Shown here: piece by piece, positions 10,825 to 29,646 of the stretch
Layout of the letters: each line of letters starts with the position of its first letter
Position numbering within the stretch: the stretch's first letter is position 1
Source of the DNA: Bacteroidota bacterium
GTDB taxonomy: Bacteria; Bacteroidota; Bacteroidia; Bacteroidales; UBA12077
Assembly: GCA_020444275.1 (NCBI GenBank)
Contig: JAHLLG010000002.1
Coordinates: 1,103,991 to 1,167,990 of the forward strand
Length of the DNA: 64,000 nt
Direction of reading: 5' to 3'
The notes under the pieces: generated by a model
Told to the model about the DNA's origin: nothing
Seen by the model: only the letters and a program-made list of their open reading frames with translations
Databases searched by the model: none
Translations under genes and position numbers: made by a program

Positions 10825-10980
10825 TTTATTGTATTTTACGGAGCTGCAAAAAATCCAAAAAGTGTAAAAATGCGGTAAATAATAGTTATGTTTTGTATAA
10901 AACTATTGAACTTTTTATTCAGGTTTTTAAATATACGAACAAATATTATCTGGCATTACTTTATTTTATAAAATTTTATT

Positions 10981-11630: not shown

Positions 11631-11675
11631 TTGAGCATTAAGCAAAAAACATTAACTTTGCTTAACGGTGTTAAG
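11631..11675 (+). promoter_or_regulatory. Promoter and TetR operator O1 ahead of TetR2
   Basis: A -33 TTG (11631-11633), 19 bp, then a -7 box TAACTTTG (11653-11660) match the Bacteroidota promoter pattern. Directly after the -7 box is the perfect palindrome CTTAAC-GGT-GTTAAG (11661-11675), covering the transcription start. The same operator recurs at 12391, 18091, 18208 and 29632. Its place here implies that TetR2 represses itself. Confidence 0.7.
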
Positions 11676-11732
11676 TTGATCGGTATTGTAATCAACTTAA
11701 TAACTTCTTAAAATAGAAATATCTTTTATATA

Positions 11733-12335
11733 ATGCAGCAAATACAGCAAAATCCATCAAATACAAAATCCGCTATATTAATAATTGCAAGAGAATTAAT
11801 ACAAAAAGATGGTGTCGAAAAGATTTCAATGCGCAAGATTGCAAATAAATTAGGTCTAACTGCAACGAGTATTTATTATCATTACAAGAATAAAGAAGAA
11901 ATTATTGCAGAACTAGTTAAAGAATCTAGATTAAGACTATCATCTTATATTTCTAACAGACTTCGAAATATAAATGATCCCATTCAAATTATCTTAGAAG
12001 GATTTAAAAGTTACATTGATTACGGAATAGAAAATCCTGAAGAATACAAAATAATGTTTATGCTTCCTTATCCTTCTAACGTTTCGAGTAAACTTAAGGA
12101 GAATGTAGCTGACAAAACTGAGCCGAGTATAATAGAAATATCCAAAATGATTGTTGAATTAAACTCAAATCTAAAAGAAGTTTCGGAACATGTAGCACAT
12201 TCACTTTGGCTTATGGTTCATGGCTATGTTTCTGTTTTTGTATCATCTCGTGAAGACATGATTTTTAATAAAAATAAAGTGTACGAACAGTTAATAGAAA
12301 TTGTTAATAAAACAATTACAAGTAACTATGAATAA
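11733..12335 (+). CDS. TetR/AcrR-family regulator (TetR2), likely master repressor of the peptide-catabolism regulon
   Basis: 200 residues, same architecture as TetR1: helix-turn-helix with MRKIANKLGLTATSIYYHYK, then a ligand domain with KIMFMLPYPS and VAHSLWLMVHGYVS. Its promoter carries the perfect CTTAAC-GGT-GTTAAG operator, and four further copies lie on catabolic promoters up to 29.6 kb. TetR proteins bind such 15-bp palindromes as dimers. I infer that this protein (possibly with TetR1) represses the locus and is released by a peptide, amino acid or derived metabolite. Confidence 0.85.
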   Translation: MQQIQQNPSNTKSAILIIARELIQKDGVEKISMRKIANKLGLTATSIYYHYKNKEEIIAELVKESRLRLSSYISNRLRNINDPIQIILEGFKSYIDYGIENPEEYKIMFMLPYPSNVSSKLKENVADKTEPSIIEISKMIVELNSNLKEVSEHVAHSLWLMVHGYVSVFVSSREDMIFNKNKVYEQLIEIVNKTITSNYE

Positions 12336-12382
12336 TTTATCTAATTAAAATATTGAAAACCATTTCGTTTAAAAAAAATTTA

Positions 12383-12405
12383 TATATTTGCCTAACACTG
12401 TTAAG
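12383..12405 (+). promoter_or_regulatory. Promoter and TetR operator O2 of the serine hydrolase/MFS operon
   Basis: The -7 box TATATTTG (12383-12390) is followed without a gap by CCTAAC-ACT-GTTAAG (12391-12405), one mismatch from a perfect palindrome. An in-frame TTG inside the -7 box would extend the gene upstream but cannot be the real start, because transcription begins beyond it. This fixes translation at the ATG at 12421. Confidence 0.65.
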
Positions 12406-12420
12406 TTTAAAATTACTATT

Positions 12421-13584
12421 ATGAAAAATTTGAATCCATCTAAAATTGTAGTGAGTATATTCTTACTTACGTTTTCGGCCTGTCAATCAAAGACTGAAAT
12501 CCTAAAAGAAAATCTTCAAACTAAACTAGAAGAAATTAAAACTGAAAAACATATGCCTGGTATTTCAGCAGCTATAACTTTACCGGATAATAATACATTA
12601 GCATTTACTTCTGGTTATAGTGATACTTTATCTGAAACTAAACTTTTACCATCTGATCGTTTAATGGCAGGTAGTATTGGAAAATCTTTTGTAGCCGCAA
12701 TTATTTTAAAAATGGTAGAAGCAAATGAAATAAGTCTTGACGATAAAATATCAAAATGGTTTGGAAACAATGAAATTTATTCTCAAATTCCCAATGCTGA
12801 TAACATTACAATTCGTATGTTGCTAAGTCACAGAACAGGTTGGGTTCAACATTTCTTTGAATCACAGAATTTTATTAACGATCTATTCGCTAAATTATCT
12901 GTAAACCCCGATAATTATTTTTCCCCTGAAGAAATATTCAATTATGTCACATATGATCAAGCACTATTTCCTGCTGACTCTGCATTTCATTATTCAGATA
13001 TGAATTATATTGCTTTGGGTAATATTATCGAAAAAGAAACAGGTAAAAACTATTATGATATACTTCAGGAAAGTATATTAACACCATTTGAACTAAGAAA
13101 TACAATACCAGCAAATAAAAGAGAATTGGAGGGTTTAGTTAACGGTTATATAAATCCTGCAGATCCAATGGCATCCATGTCTCCTACTGCAATGCAAAAC
13201 GGGGCTTTGGTGTTTAATCCAAGCATTGAATTTACAGGTGGTGGTTTGGCAAGTAATCCTTCAGATTTAGCTCGCTGGGCAAAAATTTTATGGAATGCTG
13301 AGTTTCTAAATAAGAAATCTGTACAAGAACTTACCACCATATATGGATCAGAACCAAAATTTGGAATTGAAGGTTATGGGTTTGGAACAGAAATATGGCA
13401 AACTGAGCTGGGCGTGTTATACGGTCATACAGGTTACTACACAGGATATAATTCCATTATGGGATATTTCCCAGAATATAATTTAGCAATAGCTGTTCAA
13501 ATAAATAGAGATTATAATAATGGTGATTTAACACAGATTGTTGTAGATCTTACCAAAATTGCAATCGATATTATAAATAAATAG
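12421..13584 (+). CDS. Lipoprotein serine hydrolase (beta-lactamase / D-Ala-D-Ala carboxypeptidase family)
   Basis: 387 residues from the ATG at 12421. Signal peptide ends in a lipobox-like FLLTFSAC with C21, so the protein is probably a lipoprotein. The class C beta-lactamase/S12 fold shows the SxxK motif in GSIGKSF, the YSDMNY motif (Tyr-Ser-Asp in the place of YxN) and HTG near the C-terminus (GHTGYYTGY). This family includes D-aminopeptidases, esterases and DD-peptidases, so an exact substrate cannot be given. In this locus a D-amino-acid-specific or peptide hydrolase would make sense. It is followed by an MFS transporter and controlled by operator O2. Confidence 0.8.
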   Translation: MKNLNPSKIVVSIFLLTFSACQSKTEILKENLQTKLEEIKTEKHMPGISAAITLPDNNTLAFTSGYSDTLSETKLLPSDRLMAGSIGKSFVAAIILKMVEANEISLDDKISKWFGNNEIYSQIPNADNITIRMLLSHRTGWVQHFFESQNFINDLFAKLSVNPDNYFSPEEIFNYVTYDQALFPADSAFHYSDMNYIALGNIIEKETGKNYYDILQESILTPFELRNTIPANKRELEGLVNGYINPADPMASMSPTAMQNGALVFNPSIEFTGGGLASNPSDLARWAKILWNAEFLNKKSVQELTTIYGSEPKFGIEGYGFGTEIWQTELGVLYGHTGYYTGYNSIMGYFPEYNLAIAVQINRDYNNGDLTQIVVDLTKIAIDIINK

Positions 13585-13644
13585 ATTATCACAAAATAGA
13601 GATAAATAATTACTACAACTATTTCTATTAGCAACTAAAAAGGA

Positions 13645-14967
13645 ATGAAACAACTATTAGCTCCATTTATTCAATTATTTAAATCTCAGAGATCCATAAA
13701 GGCTGTTAATCTAACCTTTTTTTTATCGGGTGTTATTTATTTTGGAATCCTGGCTTTGCTCGGATTATACTTTAATAAATACATAGGCTTAAACGATATC
13801 CAATCTGGAGCTATGGTTGGGATACTTACCTCAGGGATAACTCTGTTCATGTTTATTTTAGGGGGTACAGCAGAAAGAATTGGACCTAAAAAAGCTCTCT
13901 TTCTCATTTTATTCTTTATGGGATTAGGAGCTTTATTTTTTGCATTAGCTCCAGTTTTTAGAGCTAAAGGCATTTGGAGTATATCACATTTCATTGCTAT
14001 GTTAGGATTGCTTTCCATAATAATTGGAATGGGGATTAATAAGCCAGGTGTTTATGCTTCATTAAATATGTTAACCGGTGGAAAGGTTAACGCTGTTGAT
14101 TATGCAATGTTATACGGAGTTCAACAATTTGGAGCTTTTTTACCTGCAGTCTTTTCTCCCATTATAAGGCATACATATGGCATGCCTGGTGTATTTTTAT
14201 TTTACGGAATACTTGGGATTTTAGGTGCCCTGTTCATTACAATCATTTTAAATAGATCAACAGAGAGAGAAGTCCTAAACAAACATAAATGCGTAACTCA
14301 AAATAATAATAAAGCCAAACAGAGTTTTTTATCTTCGCTATTAGATCAAATAAAAGCTATCCCGATAAAAGATTTTCACTTCCTTTTTTTAATTATTGCA
14401 ATCATGCCTATTCAAACACTATATGCTCATCAGTGGTTAACCTTACCTCAGTATTTAACCAGGGCGTTTACGGGTATGGTTAAAGATTATTTTGAAGTAT
14501 TTGAAAACATAAATCCACTATTAGTATTTTTAATAGCTCCTATGGTTGCATTAATTACTGCGAAGAAAAACACATATAAAATGCTTATTACAGGTAGTTT
14601 ATTGATGGCTTTACCCATGTTCCTTTTATCTGCCGGGCCATCAATTACCTTACTGATTCTTTTTTTGATTATTAGAACATTTGGAGAGGCCATATTTCAA
14701 CCTCGTTTTTACCAGGCAATTACAGAAATGGCACCAGAAGGACGTAAAGGTTTGTATATAAGCCTTGCTGATTTACCATATATGCTAACGAAAGCTATAA
14801 CTGCATCTTATTCAGGATGGTTTTTAATGCGTTATTGTCCGGAAAATGTGCCAATTGAACAATTGAATACCGAAACCATGTGGACAATTCACGGATTAAT
14901 TGCGATGATAACTCCAATAGGATTAATTTTAGCCTATAAATGGATGAAATCATATCTTAAGAATTAA
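13645..14967 (+). CDS. MFS transporter, probable peptide or amino-acid permease
   Basis: 440 residues with about 12 predicted membrane helices in two sets of six, split by a charged loop (about 210-235). It begins FFLSGVIYFGILALLGLYFN, and the second half opens with FHFLFLIIAIMPIQTL. It lacks an obvious sugar-porter signature. It follows the serine hydrolase by 60 bp and shares promoter O2, so it probably imports the product of the periplasmic enzymes. The peptide assignment is by context only. Confidence 0.7.
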   Translation: MKQLLAPFIQLFKSQRSIKAVNLTFFLSGVIYFGILALLGLYFNKYIGLNDIQSGAMVGILTSGITLFMFILGGTAERIGPKKALFLILFFMGLGALFFALAPVFRAKGIWSISHFIAMLGLLSIIIGMGINKPGVYASLNMLTGGKVNAVDYAMLYGVQQFGAFLPAVFSPIIRHTYGMPGVFLFYGILGILGALFITIILNRSTEREVLNKHKCVTQNNNKAKQSFLSSLLDQIKAIPIKDFHFLFLIIAIMPIQTLYAHQWLTLPQYLTRAFTGMVKDYFEVFENINPLLVFLIAPMVALITAKKNTYKMLITGSLLMALPMFLLSAGPSITLLILFLIIRTFGEAIFQPRFYQAITEMAPEGRKGLYISLADLPYMLTKAITASYSGWFLMRYCPENVPIEQLNTETMWTIHGLIAMITPIGLILAYKWMKSYLKN

Positions 14968-15448
14968 CTTCTGTAGCAACTATAGATTCAAAAAGATTAG
15001 AAAAAATCTATTCAATTTGTGTTCTAATCTATGAAACTTTACTAATAATATTTATTTCATATAGTTTAAGTAAAATAAACCCTCTAGATCTAATTCGTAA
15101 ATTCTATAATTTCAAACAATAAAATGTTGAAGTTAATTTAGTTCTATACACCTCGATAAAATAAAAATTAAAATCATTTTTCATTTAACATTCCACAAAA
15201 ATCATATTTGCACTAGACTTTTCTAAACCAATTCTTTAAAATATTATAGTAAACTACTACCACCATAGGTGGTGGCTTTTGTTTCTTGCCTTCGGCAAGA
15301 TTAACTCTAATAGAGTTTATAATACTACGAATAAGTTCTAATGAACTTTGAAAACATTACGGAAAAAATAGATTAGCTTCGCTGAGCTCACTTCGTTTGG
15401 TTCCCGCTTTTGCGGGAATGACAAGAACGGCAAAGCCGAACAAACAAT

Positions 15449-15474
15449 ACCACCATTAAAGACGGTGGTTTTTT
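15449..15474 (+). terminator. Rho-independent terminator (plus strand)
   Basis: ACCACC (15449-15454) pairs with GGTGGT (15464-15469) around a 9-nt loop, followed by a T-run. It could end the serine hydrolase/MFS transcript, although it lies 480 bp beyond the MFS stop. Confidence 0.45.
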
Positions 15475-15490
15475 AGATTATAATCAATAA

Positions 15491-15523
15491 AAAGACCACA
15501 TCAAGTATATTGATGTGGTCTTT
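15491..15523 (-). terminator. Strong hairpin terminator after the TonB receptor
   Basis: A perfect 14-bp stem (AAAGACCACATCAA at 15491-15504, its complement at 15510-15523) with a 5-nt loop lies 56 bp past the receptor stop codon. An A-run upstream of it on the plus strand gives the U-tract for minus-strand transcripts. It is probably bidirectional. Confidence 0.65.
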
Positions 15524-15578
15524 ATTAATTAAATTCTATGTAATACCCTAAAACCTATCTATATTTTTCCATCCAAAT

Positions 15579-18065
15579 TTATTTATTGCCTAAAGTGTAA
15601 ACCACATTCACACCAATCAATCTAGGTTCACCTATTTGCTCAAAAGTTCTTATAAATGGAGAGATTCCTGTAGTACCTTTACCTATAATATATTCTTTAT
15701 CAGCTAAATTTCGTCCCCATAAATACGCTCCCCATTTTTTACCTTCTACACCAATTCGACTGCTCCACAATCCTAGTGCATCTATCGTATTAGCATCAGT
15801 GGCATCAATGTAAGTAGGCTGATCCAGTTCTCCCCTATATTTATACTGTATGCGTCCAACTAATTTTACTTTCCCAATAGGAAAATTTAAGTCAATCGCT
15901 GCATTAGCATTCATATCAGGTATGTTATTTAATCTCTCCCCAGCACGGTCAATAGTAGAACCATCAGGAAGTTCTGCAACATAATCTGTATATTCTGATT
16001 GATTATATCCGAACCCTCCTGAAAAAGCAATATTCTTTGTAATTAAATATGTAATATCAGCTTCAAAACCTTTTACTTGTGCCTTTGCTGCGTTGTTAAT
16101 TGCTATACCTGTTCCATCTTCTGTAGTAACCGGTACTTGTAAGTTATCATAATTCATTAAGAAAGCGGCTAAATTGGCAAAAAAGGTATTATTTGCATTG
16201 CTTAGCTTAACACCAACTTCATAATTATCCATTATTTCTGCATCAAAAGGAGTTTCTAGTTCTTGAGCAGAACTTATGAACCTAACATTAAAACCACCAG
16301 ATTTGTATCCTCTTGCGTAACTAATATAAGCATTTGCCCACTCAAAAGGTTTTGCTTTTAAACTAACTGTAGGAGTTATGATATTTTCAGAATGATCTGC
16401 TTTTAAATATTCACCTTCATCTGCAACTCCATCAAGATTAGCATCAGGAAAAGCCTGATAACCTACAGCAGGCACTCCATCCTGTTGAAAACTAATTTCC
16501 TTCTTATCAATTGTATACCTGATTCCTGCATTTATAGTAAAAAAATCAAGAAATCTATAATCAGCTGAAGCATAAACCCCTATATTATTCTGAACGATCT
16601 CTGCTCTCGGAAAAATAGATGAACCTTCCAATGTACCTGCAGGAGTTCCATACAAAACATCCATAAATGAACCTAATGTAATATTCTGAGAAAAATCGGA
16701 ATTCATATTATAATAAAATAATCCTCCAACCCAATTCAATTTATTACTTGATGAAGAAGAAATTTTAAGTTCCTGACTAAACTGTTTTCCTCTATCTTCT
16801 CTATCTTCATATATCGCATCTGCGATAGAGAAATCCAAATCTCGTTTCCATTCTCTGGTTGCATCTCTATACGAAGTAATTGATTTAATAACAGCACTTT
16901 TCCCAATATAATATCCCATATTTAAAGATGTTCCCCAAAGCTTCTTTTTATAGAATGGAGAAACATTATGATTAAATGTTCCTCTGCCATCATCGTTTAG
17001 GTTAATACCATAGCCTGCATTAAATGCAACATCAAGTGGTATTTCTGTTAATGGAGCATTGGCCCAACTTACCACATTTGGTTGTTGTTCCACATAATTC
17101 TCATCGGTAAAATCAAAACCCAGATTAGCCACAAAATTTTCGTTCGGTCTAAAGTTTAAATCGATTCTTCCAGCTGTAACTTCTGAGTCAGAATTTTTGC
17201 CATCTGCAATATTTTTTATATAACCATCATAGCGATAATGTAAAACAGAAGCTCTTACATTTATACTTTTAGTAAGTTTTGCATTCACAACGGGTCTAAT
17301 TCTCATAAAATTGCGATCACCATAATCCACGTTCAAAGTAGCATAATTCTTTGGCGTTGGCTTAATGGTTGTCATATTAACTGCTCCAGCAATAGCATTT
17401 TTTCCAAACTGAGTTCCTTGTGGTCCTCTTAAAACTTCTATTCTGGCAAGATCCACAACAAAGTTATTCTGAAACTCATCAGGACCTTGATATACTTCAT
17501 TCAAATAAACTCCTTCGGCGGTACCAGAACCAGGGTTTCCACCATTTCCACCCATAATTCCTCTAATATTAATAGACTGACTATACTGATCTCCAGTAAC
17601 ATTTACGTTAGGTACAACTCCTAGTAAATCGCCAGTTGATGTAGAAATTGTTCTTTCTATTTCTTTTACAGATAAGGTACTCACTGATAAAGGAACCTCA
17701 CGAATATCTTCTTCGCGTCTTCGAGATGTAACAACAATTTCGCTTAATCCGAATAAATCTTCTTCAAGAGTAACTTCAACATTCGATACATCATTTAAAC
17801 TAGCAATTTTTAATTTCTGAGGTTTATATCCAATAAAACTTACCAATAAAACCCCATCATCTATTTTATTGGCATTTACAATGAATTTACCATTAGCATC
17901 TGTTGTTGTTCCGATATAAGTGTTTTCGATAACAACCGTAGCACCAATAAGAGGTGAGTTATTCGCATCTTTTACAATACCACTTATCTCTTGGGAAAAA
18001 CCAATAAGTGGAAAATTAAGAAAAAGTAGAATAATAATTGATTTTAAATAATTGTAGTTTTTCAT
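15579..18065 (-). CDS. TonB-dependent outer-membrane receptor, no SusD partner
   Basis: 828 residues. Signal peptide about 1-25; a CarboxypepD-regulatory-like domain about 26-110 (GIVKDANNSPLIGATVVIEN); a plug about 125-240 with VEVLRGPQGTQFGKNAIAGAV; then a 22-strand-type barrel ending in a C-terminal aromatic/hydrophobic strand (GVNVVYTLGNK). The single-protein layout resembles FecA/siderophore-type receptors rather than SusC. Its promoter carries TetR operator O3 and it faces the epimerase operon divergently, so it probably imports the peptide or amino-acid derivative that the locus degrades. Confidence 0.88.
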   Translation of the reverse strand: MKNYNYLKSIIILLFLNFPLIGFSQEISGIVKDANNSPLIGATVVIENTYIGTTTDANGKFIVNANKIDDGVLLVSFIGYKPQKLKIASLNDVSNVEVTLEEDLFGLSEIVVTSRRREEDIREVPLSVSTLSVKEIERTISTSTGDLLGVVPNVNVTGDQYSQSINIRGIMGGNGGNPGSGTAEGVYLNEVYQGPDEFQNNFVVDLARIEVLRGPQGTQFGKNAIAGAVNMTTIKPTPKNYATLNVDYGDRNFMRIRPVVNAKLTKSINVRASVLHYRYDGYIKNIADGKNSDSEVTAGRIDLNFRPNENFVANLGFDFTDENYVEQQPNVVSWANAPLTEIPLDVAFNAGYGINLNDDGRGTFNHNVSPFYKKKLWGTSLNMGYYIGKSAVIKSITSYRDATREWKRDLDFSIADAIYEDREDRGKQFSQELKISSSSSNKLNWVGGLFYYNMNSDFSQNITLGSFMDVLYGTPAGTLEGSSIFPRAEIVQNNIGVYASADYRFLDFFTINAGIRYTIDKKEISFQQDGVPAVGYQAFPDANLDGVADEGEYLKADHSENIITPTVSLKAKPFEWANAYISYARGYKSGGFNVRFISSAQELETPFDAEIMDNYEVGVKLSNANNTFFANLAAFLMNYDNLQVPVTTEDGTGIAINNAAKAQVKGFEADITYLITKNIAFSGGFGYNQSEYTDYVAELPDGSTIDRAGERLNNIPDMNANAAIDLNFPIGKVKLVGRIQYKYRGELDQPTYIDATDANTIDALGLWSSRIGVEGKKWGAYLWGRNLADKEYIIGKGTTGISPFIRTFEQIGEPRLIGVNVVYTLGNK

Positions 18066-18090
18066 AATTATAATATTAGTTAGTATTTTA

Positions 18091-18113
18091 CTTTACAGTG
18101 TTAAGCAAATATA
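18091..18113 (-). promoter_or_regulatory. Promoter and TetR operator O3 of the TonB receptor
   Basis: On the minus strand the -7 box TATATTTG (18113-18106) is followed directly by CTTAAC-ACT-GTAAAG (18105-18091), one half-site perfect and one with a mismatch. The operator therefore covers the start of transcription about 30 bp before the receptor ATG. Confidence 0.65.
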
Positions 18114-18199
18114 ATATATTTTTTATTTAAAACTAATTTATTGTAAGTTTTTATGCTGTTTTTAATCATTTTATGATGTGTTATATGTGGAAATATTCA

Positions 18200-18222
18200 T
18201 ATATTTGCCTTACAGTGTTAAG
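18200..18222 (+). promoter_or_regulatory. Promoter and TetR operator O4 of the epimerase operon
   Basis: The -7 box TATATTTG (18200-18207) abuts CCTTAC-AGT-GTTAAG (18208-18222), the same arrangement as O2 and O3. The right half-site is perfect and the left is degenerate. O3 and O4 are about 100 bp apart, back to back, so one repressor could silence both divergent operons. Confidence 0.65.
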
Positions 18223-18278
18223 TTATATTTATATATTTAGCTATAATTAATTATATACACCATTAAAAATTATTACGT

Positions 18279-19481
18279 ATGAAAAATAAATTAATGTTAA
18301 ACCTGATTTTAACACATCTAATCATCTTATTTGCAAATAACTATTCAATGGCTCAAAGAAATACCAAGAGTGACTTGACTATATCAAAAATCGAGATTTA
18401 TAAAGTAGACTTAGAGCTTAAAGAACATCAAAGACTATCTCAGGGAGTTCTTACCCATGCTAAAATAGTAGTAATTAAAGTATTTACACAATCTGGCATA
18501 TATGGAACCGGCGAAGTAACTCCTTTAACTATATTAATGGGAGAAACTCAAGAATCATGTTTTGAAATGGCTAAAATATTAGGAAATCAGATTTTAGGTA
18601 AAAACTCGTTAGAAATTAACAGGCTAGTAAATGAAATGGATAATCTTATCCCGGGGAATAGTGGAATCAAAAGTGCATTTGATATGGCTTTATACGATAT
18701 AGCAGCTAAACATGCCGGATTACCTTTATACCAATTTTTAGGCGGATCAAATAAAAACCTGATTATTGATCGCACCATATTTATTGATACACCAGAAAAA
18801 ATGGCTGATAGAGCAGAATTACTCGTTAATAATGGTATCAAATTGTTAAAAGTTAAATTAGGAGATGGAGTACATACGGATATTGACAGAATAAAAGCTA
18901 TTAGAAATAGGATTGGTATTGATATTCCAATAAAAGTTGATGCAAATCAGGGTTGGAATGAAGTTGAAGCAATTCAAGTTATCAGAGAACTGGAGAAATA
19001 CAATATAGAATATATAGAACAACCTATTGCTAAGGATAACTTTGAAGGAATGGCAAGATTAAAATCAAAAAGTAATATTCCTATTATGGCAGATGAAACC
19101 GTGTGGAATTATCGCGATGCTGCCAGACTTTTAATTTTAAATGGCTGCGACTTAATGAATATCAAATTAGCAAAGTCAGGAGGTATATATAACGCACAAA
19201 AAATTGCAGCAATTGCCGAAAGTGCAGATATTGATTGTATGGTTGGATGCATGCAAGAAACTCGCTTCGGTTTAACAGCTCTTGCTCACTTTGTTATGGC
19301 TAATAATATCATTAAGCATTATGATATGGATTCCAACTTTGCTTTAAAAGAAGATCCAGTAGAAGGCGGCATTGTGTTTATTGATGATTATTACTGGATT
19401 TTACCAAGTGATAAAATCGGCATAGGTGCCGATTTTAAACAAGAATATCTTGACAAATCTGAAAAATTCATCATAAAATAA
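18279..19481 (+). CDS. Dipeptide epimerase-like enolase-superfamily enzyme with apparent signal peptide
   Basis: 400 residues. After a signal-like N-terminus (LMLNLILTHLIILFANNYSM, then AQ) comes a full muconate-lactonising/enolase fold. Its markers are the KVKLG acid-base lysine (about residue 193), metal ligands in VDANQG, YIEQP and MADET, the second lysine in NIKLAKSGG, and DMDSNF near the C-terminus, the DxD pattern typical of L-Ala-D/L-Glu-type dipeptide epimerases. The family epimerises the second residue of dipeptides. Family members are usually cytoplasmic, so export would be unusual. A start at M24 would remove the signal, but the 57-nt leader after O4 favours 18279. Confidence 0.8.
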   Translation: MKNKLMLNLILTHLIILFANNYSMAQRNTKSDLTISKIEIYKVDLELKEHQRLSQGVLTHAKIVVIKVFTQSGIYGTGEVTPLTILMGETQESCFEMAKILGNQILGKNSLEINRLVNEMDNLIPGNSGIKSAFDMALYDIAAKHAGLPLYQFLGGSNKNLIIDRTIFIDTPEKMADRAELLVNNGIKLLKVKLGDGVHTDIDRIKAIRNRIGIDIPIKVDANQGWNEVEAIQVIRELEKYNIEYIEQPIAKDNFEGMARLKSKSNIPIMADETVWNYRDAARLLILNGCDLMNIKLAKSGGIYNAQKIAAIAESADIDCMVGCMQETRFGLTALAHFVMANNIIKHYDMDSNFALKEDPVEGGIVFIDDYYWILPSDKIGIGADFKQEYLDKSEKFIIK

Positions 19482-19486
19482 ACATC

Positions 19487-22120: not shown

Positions 22121-22143
22121 ATGCATTGTAAAACATATAAATT

Positions 22144-23073
22144 ATGAAAGCTAAAAAATCAGTTAATTTTATTCAATATTACTTAATATCTTTAATAATA
22201 GTCATATTAATTATGGCTTCATCTTTTTTCATTTTTCCTGTTAAATCAGCAACACTTATGCAAGATTTATGGGCCTTCTTTACAAAGAAACAGTTGTATC
22301 CTAATGTAATTTCCATTGGTCGTTTTTCAGTCAAAGATCCAGTTGGTTTCTTGATTTTACTTTTTGCAGCTGCTCCATCCCTCAGTGCAATTATATTAAA
22401 ATGGATTATTGAAGGAAGAAACGGATTAAAAAACCTGTTTAGCAGATTTAAACCCATTGGAAATTTATTTGATGCTACAGATGCAAAAAAGATTTATATA
22501 TGGATTTTTTCTATTTATGCGATCGTATCTATTGCATATATTCTAGCAGGAATAGCTTTAGTCGGTATGGAAGGTATGAAATCTACTTTTGATGTATTAG
22601 GAGGTAATTTCTTATTAATCATTATAACCCTAATTATTGGAATATTTATTGACGAAGGAGGCCTTTTAGAAGAGCTTGGCTGGCGAGGGTTTGGTTTAAT
22701 ATATCTGGTTAATAAGTATAAAAATCCATTTGTAGCAACAATTCTTTTAGGATTCTTTTGGTGGTTGTGGCATATTCCTAGAGATATTGTTGGAGTGCTA
22801 TCTACAGGATTCACACTTCAGTTTGTAAGTCAGCAAGCTTTATTTTTAATATTATGCATGGCATTATCTATCGTAATTAGCTATGCTGTCTTTAAAACAG
22901 GTGGAAGTGTTATTCCAGCCATTTTAATTCATGGAGGTACTAATGTTTGGAGCAAAGCATTATCTAGTCCACTTTACCAAACCATCGGGATTGATTTTAG
23001 AACCATTTTTGTTATCTTACTTGCTATAACAATTTTAATTATGACGAAAGGAAAGCTTGGATTAGAAAAATGA
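22144..23073 (+). CDS. CPBP-family intramembrane protease (Abi/CAAX-like)
   Basis: 309 residues with about eight membrane helices. The CPBP motifs are present: EELGWRGFGL (Glu-Glu and Arg), FWWLWHIPRD (His) and a last HGGTNVW (His). CPBP proteins are membrane glutamate proteases or peptide-modifying enzymes. Here it closes the O4 operon, 23 bp after the BNR gene, and may act on peptides or on the immune/processing side of the system. A terminator follows at 23097. Confidence 0.8.
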   Translation: MKAKKSVNFIQYYLISLIIVILIMASSFFIFPVKSATLMQDLWAFFTKKQLYPNVISIGRFSVKDPVGFLILLFAAAPSLSAIILKWIIEGRNGLKNLFSRFKPIGNLFDATDAKKIYIWIFSIYAIVSIAYILAGIALVGMEGMKSTFDVLGGNFLLIIITLIIGIFIDEGGLLEELGWRGFGLIYLVNKYKNPFVATILLGFFWWLWHIPRDIVGVLSTGFTLQFVSQQALFLILCMALSIVISYAVFKTGGSVIPAILIHGGTNVWSKALSSPLYQTIGIDFRTIFVILLAITILIMTKGKLGLEK

Positions 23074-23096
23074 CAAACTTTACTAAGTAGATATAA

Positions 23097-23130
23097 AAAT
23101 GAGGCTAACAATAATATCTTAGCCTCATTT
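23097..23130. terminator. Bidirectional terminator between convergent operons
   Basis: A perfect 12-bp stem (AAATGAGGCTAA at 23097-23108, its complement at 23119-23130) with a 10-nt loop has T-rich flanks on both sides. It lies 24 bp after the CPBP gene and 19 bp after the HD gene, ending both convergent TetR-controlled transcripts. Confidence 0.8.
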
Positions 23131-23148
23131 ATTTTTTTTATTAAATGG

Positions 23149-23739
23149 TTACATTCCTATTTCGTCAGCAATTTCGGTTAATGCATCAATTGCTATACTT
23201 AGAAATACAGAAAGCTCTATTCCTTGATTTTCTATATCGTATATAAATGGTCTGTTTACCGAAGCTGCAAAAGCCTTTGATTTTAACTTTTTCTTCAATG
23301 AGCTTACTTTCGTTCCTTCGATCTTTTTGTCAGGCTTAATAGCAATATATGCAGAAATAATTCCAGTAATGTTTTCAGCAGCAGCCAAAATAAAATCAAA
23401 TTTGGTCTTCCTTTTAGCATCATAGCCACTAACACCTTCTGTATGTGCTATTATTGCTTCAAACATTTCAGGAATATCATATCCTTCTTTTTTTAATATC
23501 TCAACGGTTTTATAACCATGCTCTTTATAATCATTACCAATGATATCCATATCTAAATCATGCAATAAACCCGTTACACCCCAAAACTCTTCATCTTCTC
23601 CAAAATGTAGTGCTAATTTTCGCATGATAGCTTCAGACTCTCTGGTATGTAACTTCAGATATTCTGTTTTAAGATATTTATTCCATAATACTATTGCATC
23701 TTCTCTATTAATTTTTGTTTTCATAAGCAGAAAAGTCAT
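23149..23739 (-). CDS. HD-domain hydrolase, unknown substrate
   Basis: 196 residues. HD signature LLHDLDMD near residue 60, with other ligands likely in the early VRNFRYS-equivalent helix (LHTRESEAIMRKLALHFGED) and AIIAHTEGVSGY. The pattern matches the small HDIG-like phosphohydrolases that are often annotated only as 'HD domain protein'. A second in-frame ATG at 23724 gives a family-like start (MKTKINRED). It is the last gene of the O5 operon, 8 bp from the CysK-like gene. Its role in peptide catabolism is unclear. Confidence 0.75.
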   Translation of the reverse strand: MTFLLMKTKINREDAIVLWNKYLKTEYLKLHTRESEAIMRKLALHFGEDEEFWGVTGLLHDLDMDIIGNDYKEHGYKTVEILKKEGYDIPEMFEAIIAHTEGVSGYDAKRKTKFDFILAAAENITGIISAYIAIKPDKKIEGTKVSSLKKKLKSKAFAASVNRPFIYDIENQGIELSVFLSIAIDALTEIADEIGM

Positions 23740-23747
23740 ATTTCTAA

Positions 23748-24734
23748 TTAAAAATTATGTTCCCACAGATCAGTACTCAAGTATTTTAACCCCGAATCAT
23801 TTAAAGTAACCACAATAGTTTTGCCGCTTAACTCTTCCTTAAGCAGTTTTAAAGCAACAGCCACATTGGCTCCGGAAGAAAATCCTGCAAATACACCTTC
23901 CTTTGATGCTAGCAGTCGACAGGCATCCATTGCTTCCTGGTCCGTAACTTGAAAAAATCCATCAATATCATTTTTATCAACGAATTTTAATTCTGGCATA
24001 GAATATCCACCACCTTGAATTCTATGATTGGGATTAGTAATTTTATGTCCGCTATAAACTGCAGCACTAGATGGTTCAATGGCATAACATTTTATTGAGT
24101 TGTTATATTCTTTAAAAGCACGAGCACATCCTGCAAATGTCCCGCCAGATCCTAAAAAATCACAAAAGGCATCAATTTCACCATTCGTTTGACTTAATAT
24201 CTCGGGACCAGTATGCAAATAATGAGCATTATAGCTACCTTCCAATAAAAACTGATCAGCCCAAAAAGCATTCCTTTCTTTTACAATCTCCAGTGTTTTT
24301 AACCTAACCTGTTCTAAATCTCCACCAGAAACCTGCCCTGGTTTAGATTCTGGCAACTGATCAACAAGAACAACTTCAGCTCCCAAAGCTGCCATCATTC
24401 GTGCACGCTCCACAGAATTCCCCTTCGACATTACCGCTACAAATTTATACCCTTTAACACCGCAAACTATGGATAAACCCGTTCCGGTATTTCCACTAGT
24501 TAACTCTACTACTGTTTGACCTGGTTTTAATAATCCTTTTTCTTCAGCTTCTTCGATCATTTGTCTTGCTATTCTGTCCTTTTTTGAAAAACCTGGATTT
24601 AAATACTCCAATTTAGCAAGCAAAGTACCTTCAACACCTGATGTTATGCGATCTAACCTAATTAGTGGAGTAGAACCTATTACTTCAACACTTGAAGGCA
24701 AAATCGTATTATAATTTGTAACAACATTTTCCAT
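23748..24734 (-). CDS. CysK-like fold-type II PLP enzyme
   Basis: 328 residues. PLP-binding lysine in NPGFSKKDRIA (SxKDR with Lys in the x position), the substrate loop SGNTGTGL, and the phosphate-binding GSGGTFAG where O-acetylserine sulfhydrylases usually have GTGGT. The overall length and start are those of cysteine synthase/cystathionine beta-synthase. The deviations and the operon context (aspartase, asparaginase, peptidases) make an amino-acid lyase, such as a cysteine- or serine-degrading enzyme, as likely as cysteine synthesis. Confidence 0.8.
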   Translation of the reverse strand: MENVVTNYNTILPSSVEVIGSTPLIRLDRITSGVEGTLLAKLEYLNPGFSKKDRIARQMIEEAEEKGLLKPGQTVVELTSGNTGTGLSIVCGVKGYKFVAVMSKGNSVERARMMAALGAEVVLVDQLPESKPGQVSGGDLEQVRLKTLEIVKERNAFWADQFLLEGSYNAHYLHTGPEILSQTNGEIDAFCDFLGSGGTFAGCARAFKEYNNSIKCYAIEPSSAAVYSGHKITNPNHRIQGGGYSMPELKFVDKNDIDGFFQVTDQEAMDACRLLASKEGVFAGFSSGANVAVALKLLKEELSGKTIVVTLNDSGLKYLSTDLWEHNF

Positions 24735-24743
24735 AGTAAAATC

Positions 24744-26030
24744 TTATTTAGCCTTATTCAATAAATCCTTAACTGCATCTTTATGAACAAAGTAATAGAG
24801 TACTTTCAACTTAATGTAATCACCTCTATAATAAATGTACCCACGGTGGTTACTTTCCCTCCCCGGATCACCAGTCTCCTTTATAATAAACCAATCATAT
24901 CCATCCTTTTGGGTATATCCAACTATATGGACACCATGATCGTCTACTGTAGTTCTATTATACATTCTAAATTCTCTTGAATCCTGATTAATGTATTCTT
25001 CCGGTATATCAAATTCGGGAATAATACCTACTCCTTTATCGTAATAATACAATCCGGGCTCTTGCGATAAATCGCCAGCGATACCAACAGTATAACCATT
25101 TTTTACAGCTTCTTTTAGCGCATTGTAATATTCATTAATTGGAACATTTAGATAATCTGCATTTTCCCACCAGTTATCATTATAAGGAAAAACATGGTAT
25201 TCATAAAAAGGATATTTTAGTGTGGACATAAGACTTATATAATTATCTACTTGAAGATTTAATGTTTCGTAAAATTCTTTCGGAGTAAGCTCTTTACCAT
25301 TAACAATAACCGTTTCAGGTGGAGTTCCCATATGCTTATTCAGAATAGTTTTTACATAATCCAGATTTGTTTTTTTGTCCCATAGGTTGTTTTCTTTAAC
25401 CCAATTAATGTAAGATTTAATTTCTTCGTACATTGGAACATAATCTCTTCGATTTAAGCCTTCCACATTGCAACAAAACTTACCTTGATAAGCTTCAAAA
25501 GGAACTATCCCATATTTCTTATAAAGTCTCATTAAAGCATTCATCTGACTTCCTTCACCATAAAAAGATTCTCCACGAGTATCAATTAGTCGCTCTACCC
25601 TTTCCAAATGCTCATAATACACCGAATACATTTCAGATAGTTTGATTTTTTTACCCGACATTCTGAATATCTCAGATTCAAACATAGATGTACTGGTATA
25701 GCTCCAGCAACATTGAGCTAAATCCTGCGGTGCGGGTGGAAAGTGAAAAGCTGTATTAAACTCTTCCATTGATTCCGGAATACTAATATTAGAAATATCG
25801 GCTTTAAACGAATAAGCCGGTTTGTTGGCTTTCTGCTCTCTAATATTCTGAATAATTTCTTCTGTTTCCTTTTGTTTGATGCTTTCCGATTCCTGGCGCA
25901 CTTCAATAATTTTATTATTATTTTTATCTCCTTCCCATTGAATATACTTTCCATGATGTTTTGATTGAGATAATAAAGAAGCAGAATATCCTATAAACAG
26001 AATAATTGTCAAGTTAACTTTTAATTTCAT
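24744..26030 (-). CDS. Exported C1-type (PepC/bleomycin-hydrolase-like) protein lacking catalytic Asn
   Basis: 428 residues, signal peptide about 1-22. The papain-like Gln and Cys are kept in QDLAQCCWSY (Gln six residues before the second Cys), and the His in DDHGVHIVGY. Where the paralogue at 33018 has KVKNSW, this protein reads IIKETGD, so the usual Asn that orients the His is replaced by Glu. It may still be a peptidase with altered chemistry or may be a peptide-binding protein. It lies 10 bp upstream of the CysK-like gene in the O5 operon. Confidence 0.8.
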   Translation of the reverse strand: MKLKVNLTIILFIGYSASLLSQSKHHGKYIQWEGDKNNNKIIEVRQESESIKQKETEEIIQNIREQKANKPAYSFKADISNISIPESMEEFNTAFHFPPAPQDLAQCCWSYTSTSMFESEIFRMSGKKIKLSEMYSVYYEHLERVERLIDTRGESFYGEGSQMNALMRLYKKYGIVPFEAYQGKFCCNVEGLNRRDYVPMYEEIKSYINWVKENNLWDKKTNLDYVKTILNKHMGTPPETVIVNGKELTPKEFYETLNLQVDNYISLMSTLKYPFYEYHVFPYNDNWWENADYLNVPINEYYNALKEAVKNGYTVGIAGDLSQEPGLYYYDKGVGIIPEFDIPEEYINQDSREFRMYNRTTVDDHGVHIVGYTQKDGYDWFIIKETGDPGRESNHRGYIYYRGDYIKLKVLYYFVHKDAVKDLLNKAK

Positions 26031-26051
26031 ATCATTTGTGTTTTAGTTGTT

Positions 26052-27050
26052 TTATAAAGTTATTTCTCCCGCTAAACTAGTTGTAAACATATTTTTAAAC
26101 TTATTTATATCTCGTTGATAAGCATTAAGCAAAAACATAGTTTTTACCAAAACTGTATCAATTGTCATATCCATTGCTGGAATGGCTCCTGCTTCAAGAA
26201 AGCGTTTTTGAAACTGATATTGCTTCAAGTCAACTTTACCATAAATGCATTGGGAAGTCAAAATAAATGGTTTACCTAAATTAAATGCCATATTAATCCA
26301 TGAAAGAAAAGTAGAATCATCGTAAGGCAAATTCCCAGCACCTAAAGATTGTACAACGATAGCATCATATTTACTAAAAATAAAATTTTCAATATTTTGG
26401 GAATCAAACCCAGGAAAATATCTTAAAAAAAATACACTTGCTTCAAAATTCGAATTTATCGGGGGTGATTCCATGCGAAACAAAATATCTGTTTCAATAT
26501 TTATATTGAAACCAACTTCAGCTAAATGCTTGAAATTAGGGCTTTCAAATGCATCATAATCTTTGGTGGATACCTTGATGCATCTGTTCCCTCTAAATAG
26601 CTTTGATCCAAAGAATATGCATACTTCAGGAATATCATAAGTAGCAAGTGCAACAGAATAAATTAAGTTATTCCTTGCATCGTTAAAGGTATCTGTAATT
26701 GGCCTTATTGCCCCAGTTAATATTACCGGCTTATTTAAACCTGTTAACAAAAATGATAGTGCTGTAGCTGTATAGGTCATGGTATCTGTACCGTGAACAA
26801 TAACAAATCCGTCAAAATTCATTGATTCAGTTTGGATAAGATTAGAAAGTGAAATCCAATGCGTTGGTTTTATATTCACACTATCCAAATTGAATAGATT
26901 CTTAACTTCAATGTCTGCAATACTTGAAATATCAGGGAAATATTTAAATAATTCTTCAACAGAATCAATCGGTCCAAAACCATTCTTTTCACCCTTGTTT
27001 TCCATTGAAAAGGTTCCACCCGTAAGTATTAAACAGATTTTTTTCATCAT
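26052..27050 (-). CDS. L-asparaginase, cytoplasmic (type I)
   Basis: 332 residues with no signal peptide, starting directly at the nucleophile region LILTGGTFSM. The second conserved Thr-Asp pair is in IVHGTDTMTYTA. The AnsA-like start and lack of export signal fit the cytoplasmic class. The reaction is asparagine to aspartate plus ammonia, feeding the aspartase encoded immediately upstream (4 bp apart). Substrates such as isoaspartyl or N-modified Asn compounds cannot be excluded. Confidence 0.85.
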   Translation of the reverse strand: MMKKICLILTGGTFSMENKGEKNGFGPIDSVEELFKYFPDISSIADIEVKNLFNLDSVNIKPTHWISLSNLIQTESMNFDGFVIVHGTDTMTYTATALSFLLTGLNKPVILTGAIRPITDTFNDARNNLIYSVALATYDIPEVCIFFGSKLFRGNRCIKVSTKDYDAFESPNFKHLAEVGFNINIETDILFRMESPPINSNFEASVFFLRYFPGFDSQNIENFIFSKYDAIVVQSLGAGNLPYDDSTFLSWINMAFNLGKPFILTSQCIYGKVDLKQYQFQKRFLEAGAIPAMDMTIDTVLVKTMFLLNAYQRDINKFKNMFTTSLAGEITL

Positions 27051-27054
27051 TGAA

Positions 27055-28395
27055 TTAGATATCTTCGTTTAAATATTTCCTTATCAGTTTTGCATTCCCT
27101 CCGGCCTCTTTAAATATTGCGTTTGCAAACTTATATCCTCGTTTATGCATTAATTCAGTAATCAAAGGAATAATAGTATCTGTGTTTTTAAGATTTACTT
27201 CTTTGTTTATTTGAATACCTGAAAAGCATTTGGTATTAAATACAGTAACCCCACTTATTAATAAATCCATCTGATCGAGAATATTAAAAATCAATGAGCT
27301 CTCATAAATATTTAATTCTAACTCACCATGATCGATTAACATTTGAACCGTGGCATTTTTGCCAATTACCTGAAAACATAATTGAATTAAAAACTCAGGA
27401 ATAACAGGATTAACTTTACCTGGCATAATAGAAGATCCGGGTTGTACTTCAGGTATTATTATTTCACCTAACCCAGTCTGTGGACCAGATGACATTAATC
27501 TAATATCTTTTGATACTTTTACTAAGCTTCTTGCTAATAAATTCAATTGGGCAGAAACATTAGCCATATCATCCGGATTTTGAGCAGCATCAAACATATT
27601 GTCAGTTATACTCAAACTATTCAAGCCAGTTATTTCCCTAATTTCCTTTATAAAGTTTTGAATATAACCATCTGTTACTGTTTTTCGATCACCTACAATT
27701 GTACCCCCGATATTTAACTTTATTAGAGCATTTACTGCATTTTCTATTCTTACTAAAGAACGTTTAATCATTTCTGAATAACCACTAAAAAAGTCATTAT
27801 AGTCTATAACAACAGCATCTTGAAGACAGGTTCTTGATATCTTCTTATTATTTCTAAACTCATCTTGCTTATTGTGTATTGTATGTATTAATTCTTCTAA
27901 CTTCTCTTTTAACCTTGGCCATTTTTTAACAACCGCCAGATGACAAGCACTAGGATAAACATCGTTGGTTGACTGGTTTATATTTACATCCTCATTGGGA
28001 TGAACCAACTTATAGGTACCTAAGTTTTCTCCACCAATTTCATTAGCAATATTCGCAATTACTTCATTGGCATTCATATTTGCAGAAGTTCCGCCACCTC
28101 CATGTAAAGAATGAATTGGGAATTGATCAAACATTTCTTTACTTAAAACATAATCACATGCCTGAGTTATTAATCTTTCTTTATTCTGATCAATTATACC
28201 AACTTTATAATTAGCAATTGCTGCCGCCTTTTTAATTTGTATCAGGCTTTCTATTAACTCAGGATAATCAGCAATTGGTCTAAAACCATTTAAAGGAAAG
28301 TTTTGTATGGCCCTAAAAGTTTGTATACCATAGTATGCATTATAAGGTACTTCTAACTTTCCTAACAAATCTCGTTCTATTCGATATTCTGACAT
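27055..28395 (-). CDS. aspA: Aspartate ammonia-lyase
   Basis: 446 residues of the aspartase/fumarase superfamily. The N-terminus RIERDLLGKLEVPYNAYYG is AspA-like, and the signature SSIMPGKVNP with the catalytic-loop Ser is intact. HPNEDVNINQSTNDVYPSA matches the substrate-binding TxxSTND region. It converts L-aspartate to fumarate and ammonia. Position between M24 peptidase and asparaginase genes makes a short path: peptide, Asn, Asp, fumarate. Fumarate hydratase is the alternative, but the N-terminus and neighbours favour AspA. Confidence 0.85.
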   Translation of the reverse strand: MSEYRIERDLLGKLEVPYNAYYGIQTFRAIQNFPLNGFRPIADYPELIESLIQIKKAAAIANYKVGIIDQNKERLITQACDYVLSKEMFDQFPIHSLHGGGGTSANMNANEVIANIANEIGGENLGTYKLVHPNEDVNINQSTNDVYPSACHLAVVKKWPRLKEKLEELIHTIHNKQDEFRNNKKISRTCLQDAVVIDYNDFFSGYSEMIKRSLVRIENAVNALIKLNIGGTIVGDRKTVTDGYIQNFIKEIREITGLNSLSITDNMFDAAQNPDDMANVSAQLNLLARSLVKVSKDIRLMSSGPQTGLGEIIIPEVQPGSSIMPGKVNPVIPEFLIQLCFQVIGKNATVQMLIDHGELELNIYESSLIFNILDQMDLLISGVTVFNTKCFSGIQINKEVNLKNTDTIIPLITELMHKRGYKFANAIFKEAGGNAKLIRKYLNEDI

Positions 28396-28407
28396 AGGAT
28401 TAATATT

Positions 28408-29589
28408 TTACTTTATAAGATATAATTCTTCCTGTGGCTTGGATAAATATTCTGCTCCATCCTCAGTAATAACAAACATTTCTTCAATGGTAGCAATTCC
28501 CTTGCCTTCTACAAACAATTTAGGCTCGATAGTAAATACCATATCTTTTTCCAAAGGAACCAAAACTTTGCTACCATACTTTTCCCATTCCGGACCAAGC
28601 AATGCATATCCATCATGTGGAAACATTCCGACTTGGTGTCCAACACCATGTTTAAATTCTTCATAACCATTGCTCATAACATGCCATCTTGCTGCAAAAT
28701 CGACATTCTTTCCTTGAATACCAGGACACATAACCTCTTTTGCCAATTCAATAGATTCCTTAACAGTGTTAAAACCTCTAACTACATCCTTCGGTGGAAC
28801 ACTTTCATTGTCTTTTAATATATACCATGTTCTCTGAAGATCTGAACAATAACCATTTACTTTTACTCCAAAATCCATATTTAAGATGTGCCCTTTCTCA
28901 ACCTTTCTGTCTGTTGGTGAGTAATGAGCAACATTTGTATTAGGTCCAGTGAAAACGCCCGGACAATATTTTTCATCCCAACTTAATTCTAAGCCTCTTT
29001 CTTTTGCCTTTTCCTTCATAAAACGTGCTATTTGCTTTTCAGTTAAACCCGGCTTTATAAAATCTGTGGCTAAATCAAATATTTCTATTGTATGTTTTAT
29101 GGCTTCCTTTATGTTAGCTATTTCCGTAAGTGATTTTCTTCCTCTTAATGAAGAAATAATGTCCTCTGCTGAAATTATATTATTATGTAGTTTAATATCT
29201 TTTAACATACTGTAAATGATCTGATACATGCCATGTGTCAATCCATCACTTATTTCACTATCAATTGAATAATTCAAAGCTATTTTCGAAGGATTTAGTT
29301 TTTTTAGCACATCCTTAAAATGCTCCTGTATTCCTTTCACATAACTATGAATCTCAGTATATACACCCAGATCCTGAACATTCGCAACATCACCCTGACC
29401 GACAATAGCAATTGCATCCCCTTTTGATGTGATAATTAATGCAGAATGCCATGTTAAATCAGTTTCTACTAAAAAATCAAGCATGGGATCATGATTAATA
29501 GCACTTTCGCGTACAAATGTTATCCAACAATCTATATTTCTTTCTTTTAGGATTGAGATCGCTTGTTTTATTTTCTCCTTTACTAACAT
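28408..29589 (-). CDS. M24-family metallopeptidase (Xaa-Pro dipeptidase-like)
   Basis: 393 residues from the ATG at 29589. An in-frame start 36 bp upstream lies inside the -7/transcription-start region, so it is rejected. The creatinase-type N-domain (about 1-150) is followed by the pita-bread catalytic domain with metal ligands in LNMDFGVKVNGYCSD (Asp, Asp), HGVGHQVG (His), FTIEPKLF (Glu) and ATIEEMF (Glu). It releases N-terminal residues, typically from X-Pro peptides, with two metal ions. No export signal, so it is cytoplasmic. It is first in the O5 operon. Confidence 0.85.
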   Translation of the reverse strand: MLVKEKIKQAISILKERNIDCWITFVRESAINHDPMLDFLVETDLTWHSALIITSKGDAIAIVGQGDVANVQDLGVYTEIHSYVKGIQEHFKDVLKKLNPSKIALNYSIDSEISDGLTHGMYQIIYSMLKDIKLHNNIISAEDIISSLRGRKSLTEIANIKEAIKHTIEIFDLATDFIKPGLTEKQIARFMKEKAKERGLELSWDEKYCPGVFTGPNTNVAHYSPTDRKVEKGHILNMDFGVKVNGYCSDLQRTWYILKDNESVPPKDVVRGFNTVKESIELAKEVMCPGIQGKNVDFAARWHVMSNGYEEFKHGVGHQVGMFPHDGYALLGPEWEKYGSKVLVPLEKDMVFTIEPKLFVEGKGIATIEEMFVITEDGAEYLSKPQEELYLIK

Positions 29590-29613
29590 ATAATAGTTCC
29601 AAATTGGTTTGTA

Positions 29614-29646
29614 CAAATATAACAATTATTACTTAACACTGTTAAG
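29614..29646 (-). promoter_or_regulatory. Promoter and TetR operator O5 of the six-gene catabolic operon
   Basis: CTTAAC-ACT-GTTAAG (29632-29646) is a perfect palindrome. The minus-strand -7 box TATATTTG lies at 29621-29614, about 25 bp before the ATG at 29589. Unlike O1-O4 this operator is just upstream of the -7 box, overlapping the spacer and -33 region. The rest of the gap (29647-29901) shows no gene, RNA or clear repeat. Confidence 0.65.

Follow-up and report, generated by a model that had tools for sequence, protein, structure and literature searches.

A TetR-linked palindrome and a predicted catabolic regulon beside mnmE in a Bacteroidota genome

Local regulators of the TetR/AcrR family (TetR_N and TetR_C_33 domains) are familiar as repressors of resistance-nodulation-division (RND) efflux. 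Here we describe a block within a 64,000-nucleotide stretch of a Bacteroidota bacterium genome (contig JAHLLG010000002.1; hereafter the window) that carries two TetR genes, tetR1 and tetR2, and five promoter copies of one palindrome, CTTAAC-N3-GTTAAG. As in such local systems, a repressor gene stands beside its targets, a palindromic operator lies over the promoter and autoregulation is predicted; relatives in the same class with the same operator adjoin RND efflux genes. Unlike typical local regulators, the block has two paralogues, five promoter operators over 18 kb and a catabolic-looking island cargo. We consider it probable that the block is a self-regulated catabolic island at mnmE, resembling a cis-mobilizable element (CIME) and repressed by TetR2 and probably TetR1. 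To our knowledge, few TetR systems have been worked out in this phylum.

TetR-type FadR offers a second comparison. Distant relatives with the same operator precede fadE or fadB-like and thiolase genes, and FadR is the best named model of one such relative (61.3 bits, cut-off 200); in contrast, Pfam finds no fatty-acid oxidation gene among the island genes. A third likeness is to ansAB-type asparaginase-aspartase operons, in that type I asparaginase-like and aspartase-like genes are adjacent. Here, however, the pair sits inside a six-gene operon with M24, C1-like, CysK-like and HD genes, and the named models fall just below cut-off.

Insertion at the 3' end of trmE (= mnmE) marks SGI1-type islands, and the literature describes both tandem SGI1 arrays and CIMEs (PMC5704250; PMC8409611). 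The block shares with these islands the target gene end, direct repeats and tandem arrangement (PMC5704250; PMC8409611), but it belongs to another phylum, has other cargo and carries no recognised integrase or transfer gene. Because no integrase was recognised, we do not regard it as a member of the SGI1 group. Like CIMEs in accretion arrays, it keeps att-like ends, has no recognised integration or transfer genes and stands in tandem (PMC5704250). In comparison with CIMEs, no integrase was recognised in three units of this genome, four congeners have very small HipA-type units, and decay from a full element is conjectural. The open-access literature yielded nothing on mnmE islands in Bacteroidetes, nothing on a dipeptide epimerase with Cytophaga hutchinsonii and no occurrence of the palindrome core in either reading. 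Control of efflux by TetR proteins is well known; what is new to us is that the site is conserved, that it is re-used for other cargo and that it is packaged in an island.

Operator palindrome and promoter anatomy

An earlier note on the window had placed five copies of the palindrome, exact or nearly so, and a pattern scan recovered them all, at 11661 and 29632 without mismatch, at 12391 and 18091 with one and at 18208 with two. That note overlooked a one-mismatch copy (copy F) at 28759 inside the M24 gene. Copy F may be a looping site or a coding coincidence; its codons are only partly dictated by 12 aligned M24 homologues (GF in 12/12).

Throughout the genome (4,224,160 bases, 10 contigs), CTTAAC-N3-GTTAAG has two exact places (11661 and 29632) and 12 one-mismatch places, and five of these 14 fall in the 18,016-base block. 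At the rate set by the nine places outside, 0.039 would be expected in the block, and the probability of five or more is ~7e-10; without the intragenic copy, four places remain, with a probability of ~9e-8. Both values are slightly optimistic because the block ends were taken over from the earlier note. The genome scans used CTTAAC-type patterns, not the wider STTAAC form. At up to three mismatches the window contains 38 matches against 41.7 expected, with no excess, and the genome counts at up to two mismatches lie below the reversed control (222 versus 417; 25/24 versus 43/44; 62 versus 79). Since loose matches show no excess while close ones do, the signal is confined to close matches.

Two refined patterns occur exactly only in the block. 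The fused element TTTG-CYTWAC-N3-GTWARG (TTTGCYTWACNNNGTWARG) has four exact places in the genome (11661, 12391, 18091 on the minus strand, and 18208), and the refined palindrome CYTWACASTGTWARG also has four (12391, 18091, 18208 and 29632). Outside the block, seven of the nine one-mismatch places lie inside open reading frames (ORFs) of at least 90 aa, and two are intergenic without an abutting TAnnTTTG; the CYTWACASTGTWARG form adds four one-mismatch places there, each within ORFs. The genome-wide scan for the 15-bp motif, which had been proposed as a check, did not find the motif to be common without promoter association. The block offers a regulon with clean borders. One of the two intergenic places, GTTAACTAAGTTAAG (L006 1501-1515), is flanked by divergently oriented genes that encode a PHO4-type transporter and a DUF6272 protein, and is a possible candidate for an operator outside the block.

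As previously noted for this DNA, a TAnnTTTG -7 box abuts the operator at four of the five sites; the exception is 29632, where the box TATATTTG begins 10 bases downstream of the operator. Given the 82 TAnnTTTG boxes on both strands of the window, four abutting boxes at five sites are not chance. For Flavobacterium psychrophilum, TAnnTTTG is reported at -12 to -5 (PMC9723704). By this Flavobacterium ruler, operators A to D would cover about -4 to +11 and operator E about -37 to -23, and all of these predicted positions fit repression. A -33 TTTG is reported for Bacteroides fragilis and was not found in Flavobacterium johnsoniae (PMC7366714). A scan for sigma-70-type promoters was uninformative (109 found, 110.2 expected).

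TetR proteins and the palindrome at their relatives

Both TetR proteins have a TetR_N DNA-binding domain above cut-off and are encoded beside the targets. The claim that the operator links both TetR genes holds directly for tetR2, which carries site A; tetR1 has no upstream copy and is linked by adjacency and by its similar DNA-binding region. The two proteins are 54% identical overall, with 37/52 residues (71%) in the DNA-binding region (residues 9-60) and 69/140 (49%) in the rest. This uneven identity, together with the restriction of an operator to tetR2, would suit a two-input gate, in which TetR1 is constitutive, TetR2 is under feedback and the two answer different ligands at a common operator. 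We rate such a gate as possible though somewhat unlikely, as TetR1 could instead bind another site or be a decaying duplicate.

Evidence for tying the palindrome to these regulators comes from distant relatives. In a 395-genome sample of the phylum, with no more than 8 candidates scored in each genome, 105 other genomes yielded TetR relatives at 1e-15 (best E 2e-30), and the 29 loci retrieved from other genomes (L118-L146) were all read. A palindrome with at most two mismatches lies 7-51 bases before the first aligned tetR codon in 27 of the 29, with at most one mismatch in 16 and exactly in four. The encoded proteins are 29-36% identical to the window TetRs. In a shuffled control of 5,800 windows of 330 bases, none had a copy with at most one mismatch and 1.2% had one with at most two. 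At 20 further hand-picked loci (L315-L334), the pattern STTAAC-N3-GTTAAS (STTAACNNNGTTAAS) occurs exactly in 10, with one mismatch in three and with two in one.

Because 27 of 29 distant relatives carry the palindrome before their own tetR, the prediction that the palindrome belongs to this kind of TetR is supported. The same count speaks against a reading with bystander TetR genes, in which the palindrome serves another host regulator or works as an activator site. In favour of that reading, site E is placed upstream of its promoter, and TetR binding to the palindrome is predicted from sequence only; however, the close matches in this genome also cluster in the island, and we consider bystander TetR genes highly improbable.

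The form STTAACASTGTTAAS precedes tetR genes across the phylum, beside fadE, fadB-like or RND efflux genes. By tblastn, tetR has a fadE-type acyl-CoA dehydrogenase gene beside it at 22 loci of the first set of 29 and at eight of the further 20; the family was confirmed by Pfam for four proteins, two of them also by NCBIfam. In L341 and L342 a second palindrome copy stands before a fadB-like gene, followed by a thiolase gene (thiolase by Pfam in L341 only). Nine longer loci (from the set L335-L350) were read from the genome's own class. In four of them (L336, L337, L338 and L350) tetR is preceded by a copy with no more than one mismatch, and a second such copy separates tetR from the next efflux gene. 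L340 and L348 each contain five two-mismatch copies, four of which fall between tetR and a membrane-fusion gene. A single weaker copy is present in L339 and in L349, and L335 has none. RND pumps were confirmed by Pfam in L336, L337, L338, L340 and L350, and assigned by eye in the other own-class loci. At the tetR promoters of L337, L340, L348 and L350, TACATTTG abuts the operator, giving the same fused element as in the window.

In a midpoint-rooted FastTree phylogeny, the window TetR pair groups with the own-class regulators and not with the fadE group (local support 0.86-0.93); the NCBIfam model for TetR-type FadR gives the pair 22.5 and 27.1 bits, far under its cut-off of 200. We conclude that the TetR-operator pair appears to be old and to be re-used in the block for new cargo, as a third kind of target. 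The site is usable for finding targets of this TetR subfamily in many Bacteroidota and, if the pair indeed keeps its DNA language while its cargo changes, it presents a direct case for studying regulatory rewiring.

Among 116 other relatives, where TetR2 and M24 were the proteins searched, TetR2 had no match at 1e-20 and M24 none at 1e-60. In the phylum sample, however, M24 relatives are present in 45 of 394 other genomes, none of them from the class, and C1-like peptidase relatives in 51 other genomes, 44 of which belong to other classes. TetR matches occur in 91 plasmid records, all below 60% identity. A wider contig scan returned TetR relatives mostly from Bacillota (best 80 of at least 388), the top-scoring of which has 35% identity (44% at most in short N-terminal matches); two of those best 80 loci hold a palindrome copy with at most one mismatch, and the best (L019) has no cargo gene, by eye.

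The mnmE-flanked segment and its congeners

At mnmE, the block forms one unit in a tandem array of segments with att-like flanks, a feature that the first inspection of the window had missed. Direct repeats of the mnmE end bracket the stretch from tetR1 through the M24 promoter. The sequence TTTNCCGATACAGAAA occurs exactly at three places in the genome, on one strand and in a row: C9 1097733, 1114773 (window 10783) and 1133895 (mnmE). A one-mismatch copy at C9 1087305 extends the row; of seven further one-mismatch places, one falls within segment 1 on the opposite strand. All four row copies still encode FCIGK or FCIGR plus a stop, the last codons of mnmE. The three copies outside mnmE share ~100 more bases, at 80-82% over bases 16-60, 56-67% over bases 60-115 and ~30% after that, and the right ends of the segments have a short motif in common, by eye. 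The tandem segments measure 10.4, 17.0 and 19.1 kb, and the third is exactly the regulon.

The other segments carry different genes. Segment 1 (10.4 kb; upstream, in L259 3305-20000 plus window 1-10782) has a MacAB/HlyD/OEP-type efflux unit under two-component regulation. Segment 2 (17.0 kb, in the same upstream stretch) has FtsX/MacB permeases, an S41 peptidase and a sigma-54 response regulator with a kinase. Six congeners have the ftsX-response regulator-kinase unit (window 5531-10728) at 59-84% conservation, on retrieved stretches that do not include mnmE.

No integrase was found among the scanned ORFs of the three segments, with ORFs below 80 codons and one at C9 1103918-1104886, where L259 and the window meet, lying outside the scan; a general Pfam scan gave no relaxase-like match among the 14 genes of the regulon segment, and oriT was not searched. 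The repeats might be remnants of old recombination at a variable locus rather than ends of moved cassettes. This account, which we judge unlikely, would explain why no integrase is seen in the three segments, why GC content is near that of the surroundings and why the segment 2 unit lies on other stretches in congeners. It does not sit well with the ~100 bases that the three copies share beyond the core, nor with the core and arm start found near mnmE in congeners carrying different cargo.

In 11 congeners, where the mnmE side was read for about 9 to 12 kb, no regulon gene stands beside mnmE, and the far flank of mnmE is kept in whole or part. A second copy with a GTNATT arm start was seen in seven of the 16 congeners scanned on the mnmE side (G003, G006, G013, G014, G016, G017 and G018), with one mismatch in G013, G014, G016 and one of the two copies in G018; several congener contigs break off close to mnmE. 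Searched for in whole genomes at up to one mismatch, CCGATACAGAAAGTRATTT was found in nine of 20 genomes of the genus, this one included, and in two of 97 others, with none in the reversed control. The copy at 10783 has two mismatches to CCGATACAGAAAGTRATTT and is not counted; for the copies in G001, G002 and G005 and one in G017, closeness to mnmE is not established. A 3-mismatch core match in G009 (L272:4026) was dropped.

Taken further, one TetR-operator pair (STTAACASTGTTAAS) may have persisted throughout the phylum with an exchange of its targets, which are fatty-acid oxidation, RND efflux and, here, a catabolic island. Within the genus, cargo with its control already wired in would then arrive at the mnmE 3' end in cassettes that have no integrase and depend on a recombinase acting in trans; it would be silent at first and yet immediately inducible. 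We offer this wider scheme tentatively. The mnmE array provides a concrete way to ask how large integrase-less segments stack at one site.

Four congeners (G006, G016, G017 and G018) have units of ~1.8-2.4 kb at the mnmE site with helix-turn-helix, HipA-N and HipA-C genes in HipBST-like order (L199 8410-10326; L269 8930-10729; L271 8957-10812; L296 3784-8205), two of them in tandem in G018. G013 has a tyrosine integrase gene (Phage_int_SAM_5, Arm-DNA-bind_5; L195 8303-9394) ~600 bases from the mnmE 3' end. We do not claim this integrase as the cassette mover: in G013 the core of the distant repeat is mismatched, and not much of the arm block is present.

Cargo genes and proposed mechanism

The genes of the block fall into units behind the operators: tetR2 (unit A), serine hydrolase and major facilitator superfamily (MFS) transporter (B), TonB receptor (C), epimerase, BNR and CPBP proteins (D), and M24, aspartase-like, asparaginase-like, C1-like, CysK-like and HD proteins (E). 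Gaps inside the three-gene unit D and the six-gene unit E are 4-23 bases. By this layout every block gene but tetR1 sits behind an operator, which bears out the proposal that one operator links the cargo. The roles of the cargo genes (Table 1) rest on Pfam and NCBIfam families, not on activities, and several fall under curated cut-offs. For the epimerase-like protein, the best PDB match is 3q45 (E 3e-88), followed by the dipeptide epimerase 3jva, and its scores against the L-Ala-D/L-Glu epimerase equivalogs are 212.9 bits (cut-off 500) and 120.8 bits (cut-off 343). The most economical reading of these families is that the cargo would serve peptide uptake and breakdown to fumarate and ammonia. 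A SusCD polysaccharide utilisation locus was rejected: OMP_RagA_SusC gave 103.6 bits against a cut-off of 368.25, and the Pfam scan gave no SusD match.

For the mechanism, we infer binding, repression, inducer, substrate and insertion by a tyrosine recombinase. TetR2, and probably also its paralogue TetR1, would bind the 15-bp palindrome CYTWACASTGTWARG as dimers, and RNA polymerase would be blocked for as long as the repressor is bound. Its release by a ligand would switch on the four cargo units and tetR2 together. The cargo may then carry oligopeptides, perhaps acylated or otherwise hydrophobic, across the outer membrane; they would be trimmed or epimerised and then finished inside, by M24 and then by asparaginase and aspartase, to fumarate and ammonia. 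The 19.1-kb unit itself would have been inserted at the 3' end of mnmE by a tyrosine recombinase.

The same regulon could instead handle another substrate or give protection, through uptake and inactivation of a peptide antibiotic, a lipopeptide, D-amino-acid or cell-wall peptides, with the MFS protein as an exporter. The beta-lactamase/AmpH-fold hydrolase, the weak efflux-type matches of the MFS protein and the dipeptide epimerase-like enzyme would fit such a role, as would the grouping of the TetR pair with efflux-linked own-class regulators and the efflux system in segment 1 of the same array. The targets of the relatives suggest that the ligand is hydrophobic or acyl and not a peptide, which leaves room for an acylated peptide or a peptide antibiotic. 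The adjoining asparaginase-, aspartase- and M24-like genes, however, point to catabolism, and we regard a protective or other-substrate role as rather unlikely.

Several observations weigh against a peptide-catabolic island under TetR control. The operator-bearing relatives of the TetRs are only ~1/3 identical and stand beside other functions (fadE, fadB-like, acyl-CoA ligase, RND), giving no support for a peptide inducer; L140 and L143, two of the 29 first loci, have no palindrome, and six of the 20 hand-picked loci have no site at up to two mismatches. Within the block, a TTG at the -33 spacing is seen at promoter A only, by eye. In the regulon segment, none of the 14 genes scanned was recognised by Pfam as an integrase or transfer gene, and the GC content (0.317) hardly differs from that of the surroundings (0.331 and 0.341). 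Elsewhere, 12 M24 neighbourhoods (236 kb) contain neither an operator at up to one mismatch nor a conserved cluster of cargo genes; the other regulon-gene matches in them are a CysK-like protein (36% over 312/328 residues, L180) and a weak BNR match (23%, L183) only.

Table 1. Features of the regulon segment, in window coordinates
Feature	Position	Strand	Remarks
Left copy of mnmE 3' end, att-like core	10783..10798	+	TTTGCCGATACAGAAA; left boundary of 19.1-kb segment; minus strand reads FCIGK-stop
Conserved arm region of segment's left end	10799..10897	+	Identity with two other copies in the genome 80-82% over bases 16-60, 64-67% over bases 60-115, ~30% after that; partly common to congener copies
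tetR1, TetR/AcrR regulator	11007..11618	+	TetR_N 1.9e-14 (Pfam); TetR_C_33 26.3 bits, cut-off 26.8
Putative operator A, tetR2 promoter	11661..11675	+	Directly after TAACTTTG
tetR2, presumed (auto)repressor	11733..12335	+	TetR_N 2.5e-11; TetR_C_33 1.1e-7, 32.9 bits, cut-off 26.8
Putative operator B, serine hydrolase-MFS promoter	12391..12405	+	Directly after TATATTTG
Serine hydrolase, beta-lactamase/AmpH fold	12421..13584	+	PF00144 4.7e-44; ATG chosen at 12421; 23 named NCBIfam matches, all below cut-off
MFS transporter	13645..14967	+	PF07690 2.9e-22; 60 bases after hydrolase gene
TonB-dependent receptor with CarboxypepD_reg-like domain	15579..18065	-	PF00593, PF07715, PF13715
Putative operator C, TonB receptor promoter	18091..18105	-	Directly after TATATTTG
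Putative operator D, epimerase promoter	18208..18222	+	Directly after TATATTTG
Enolase-superfamily, dipeptide epimerase-like protein	18279..19481	+	MR_MLE domains; N-terminal extension resembles signal peptide (by eye)
BNR/VPS10 beta-propeller protein	19487..22120	+	PF15902 2.8e-36
CPBP (Rce1-like) membrane protease	22144..23073	+	PF02517 1e-10
HD-domain protein	23149..23739	-	PF01966; last gene of M24 operon
CysK-like pyridoxal phosphate enzyme	23748..24734	-	PF00291 4.5e-67; 34 NCBIfam matches, the 25 listed all below cut-off
Divergent C1-like peptidase	24744..26030	-	PF03051 1e-6; N-terminus resembles signal peptide (by eye)
Type I asparaginase-like enzyme	26052..27050	-	PF00710; TIGR00519 259 bits, cut-off 260.5
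Aspartate ammonia-lyase-like enzyme	27055..28395	-	NF008909 498.8 bits, cut-off 510
M24 peptidase (Xaa-Pro type)	28408..29589	-	PF00557 3e-44; ATG chosen at 29589; first of six-gene operon
Operator-like copy F	28759..28773		One mismatch; inside M24 gene, ~870 bases from operator E
Putative operator E, M24 operon promoter	29632..29646	-	Upstream of TATATTTG (29621-29614)
Right att-like core	29905..29920	+	3' end of mnmE itself (gene 31290-29902, minus)

Compared by eye, the C1-like peptidase has KETGD after its histidine motif, where a relative encoded at 33018-34211 has KNSWD.

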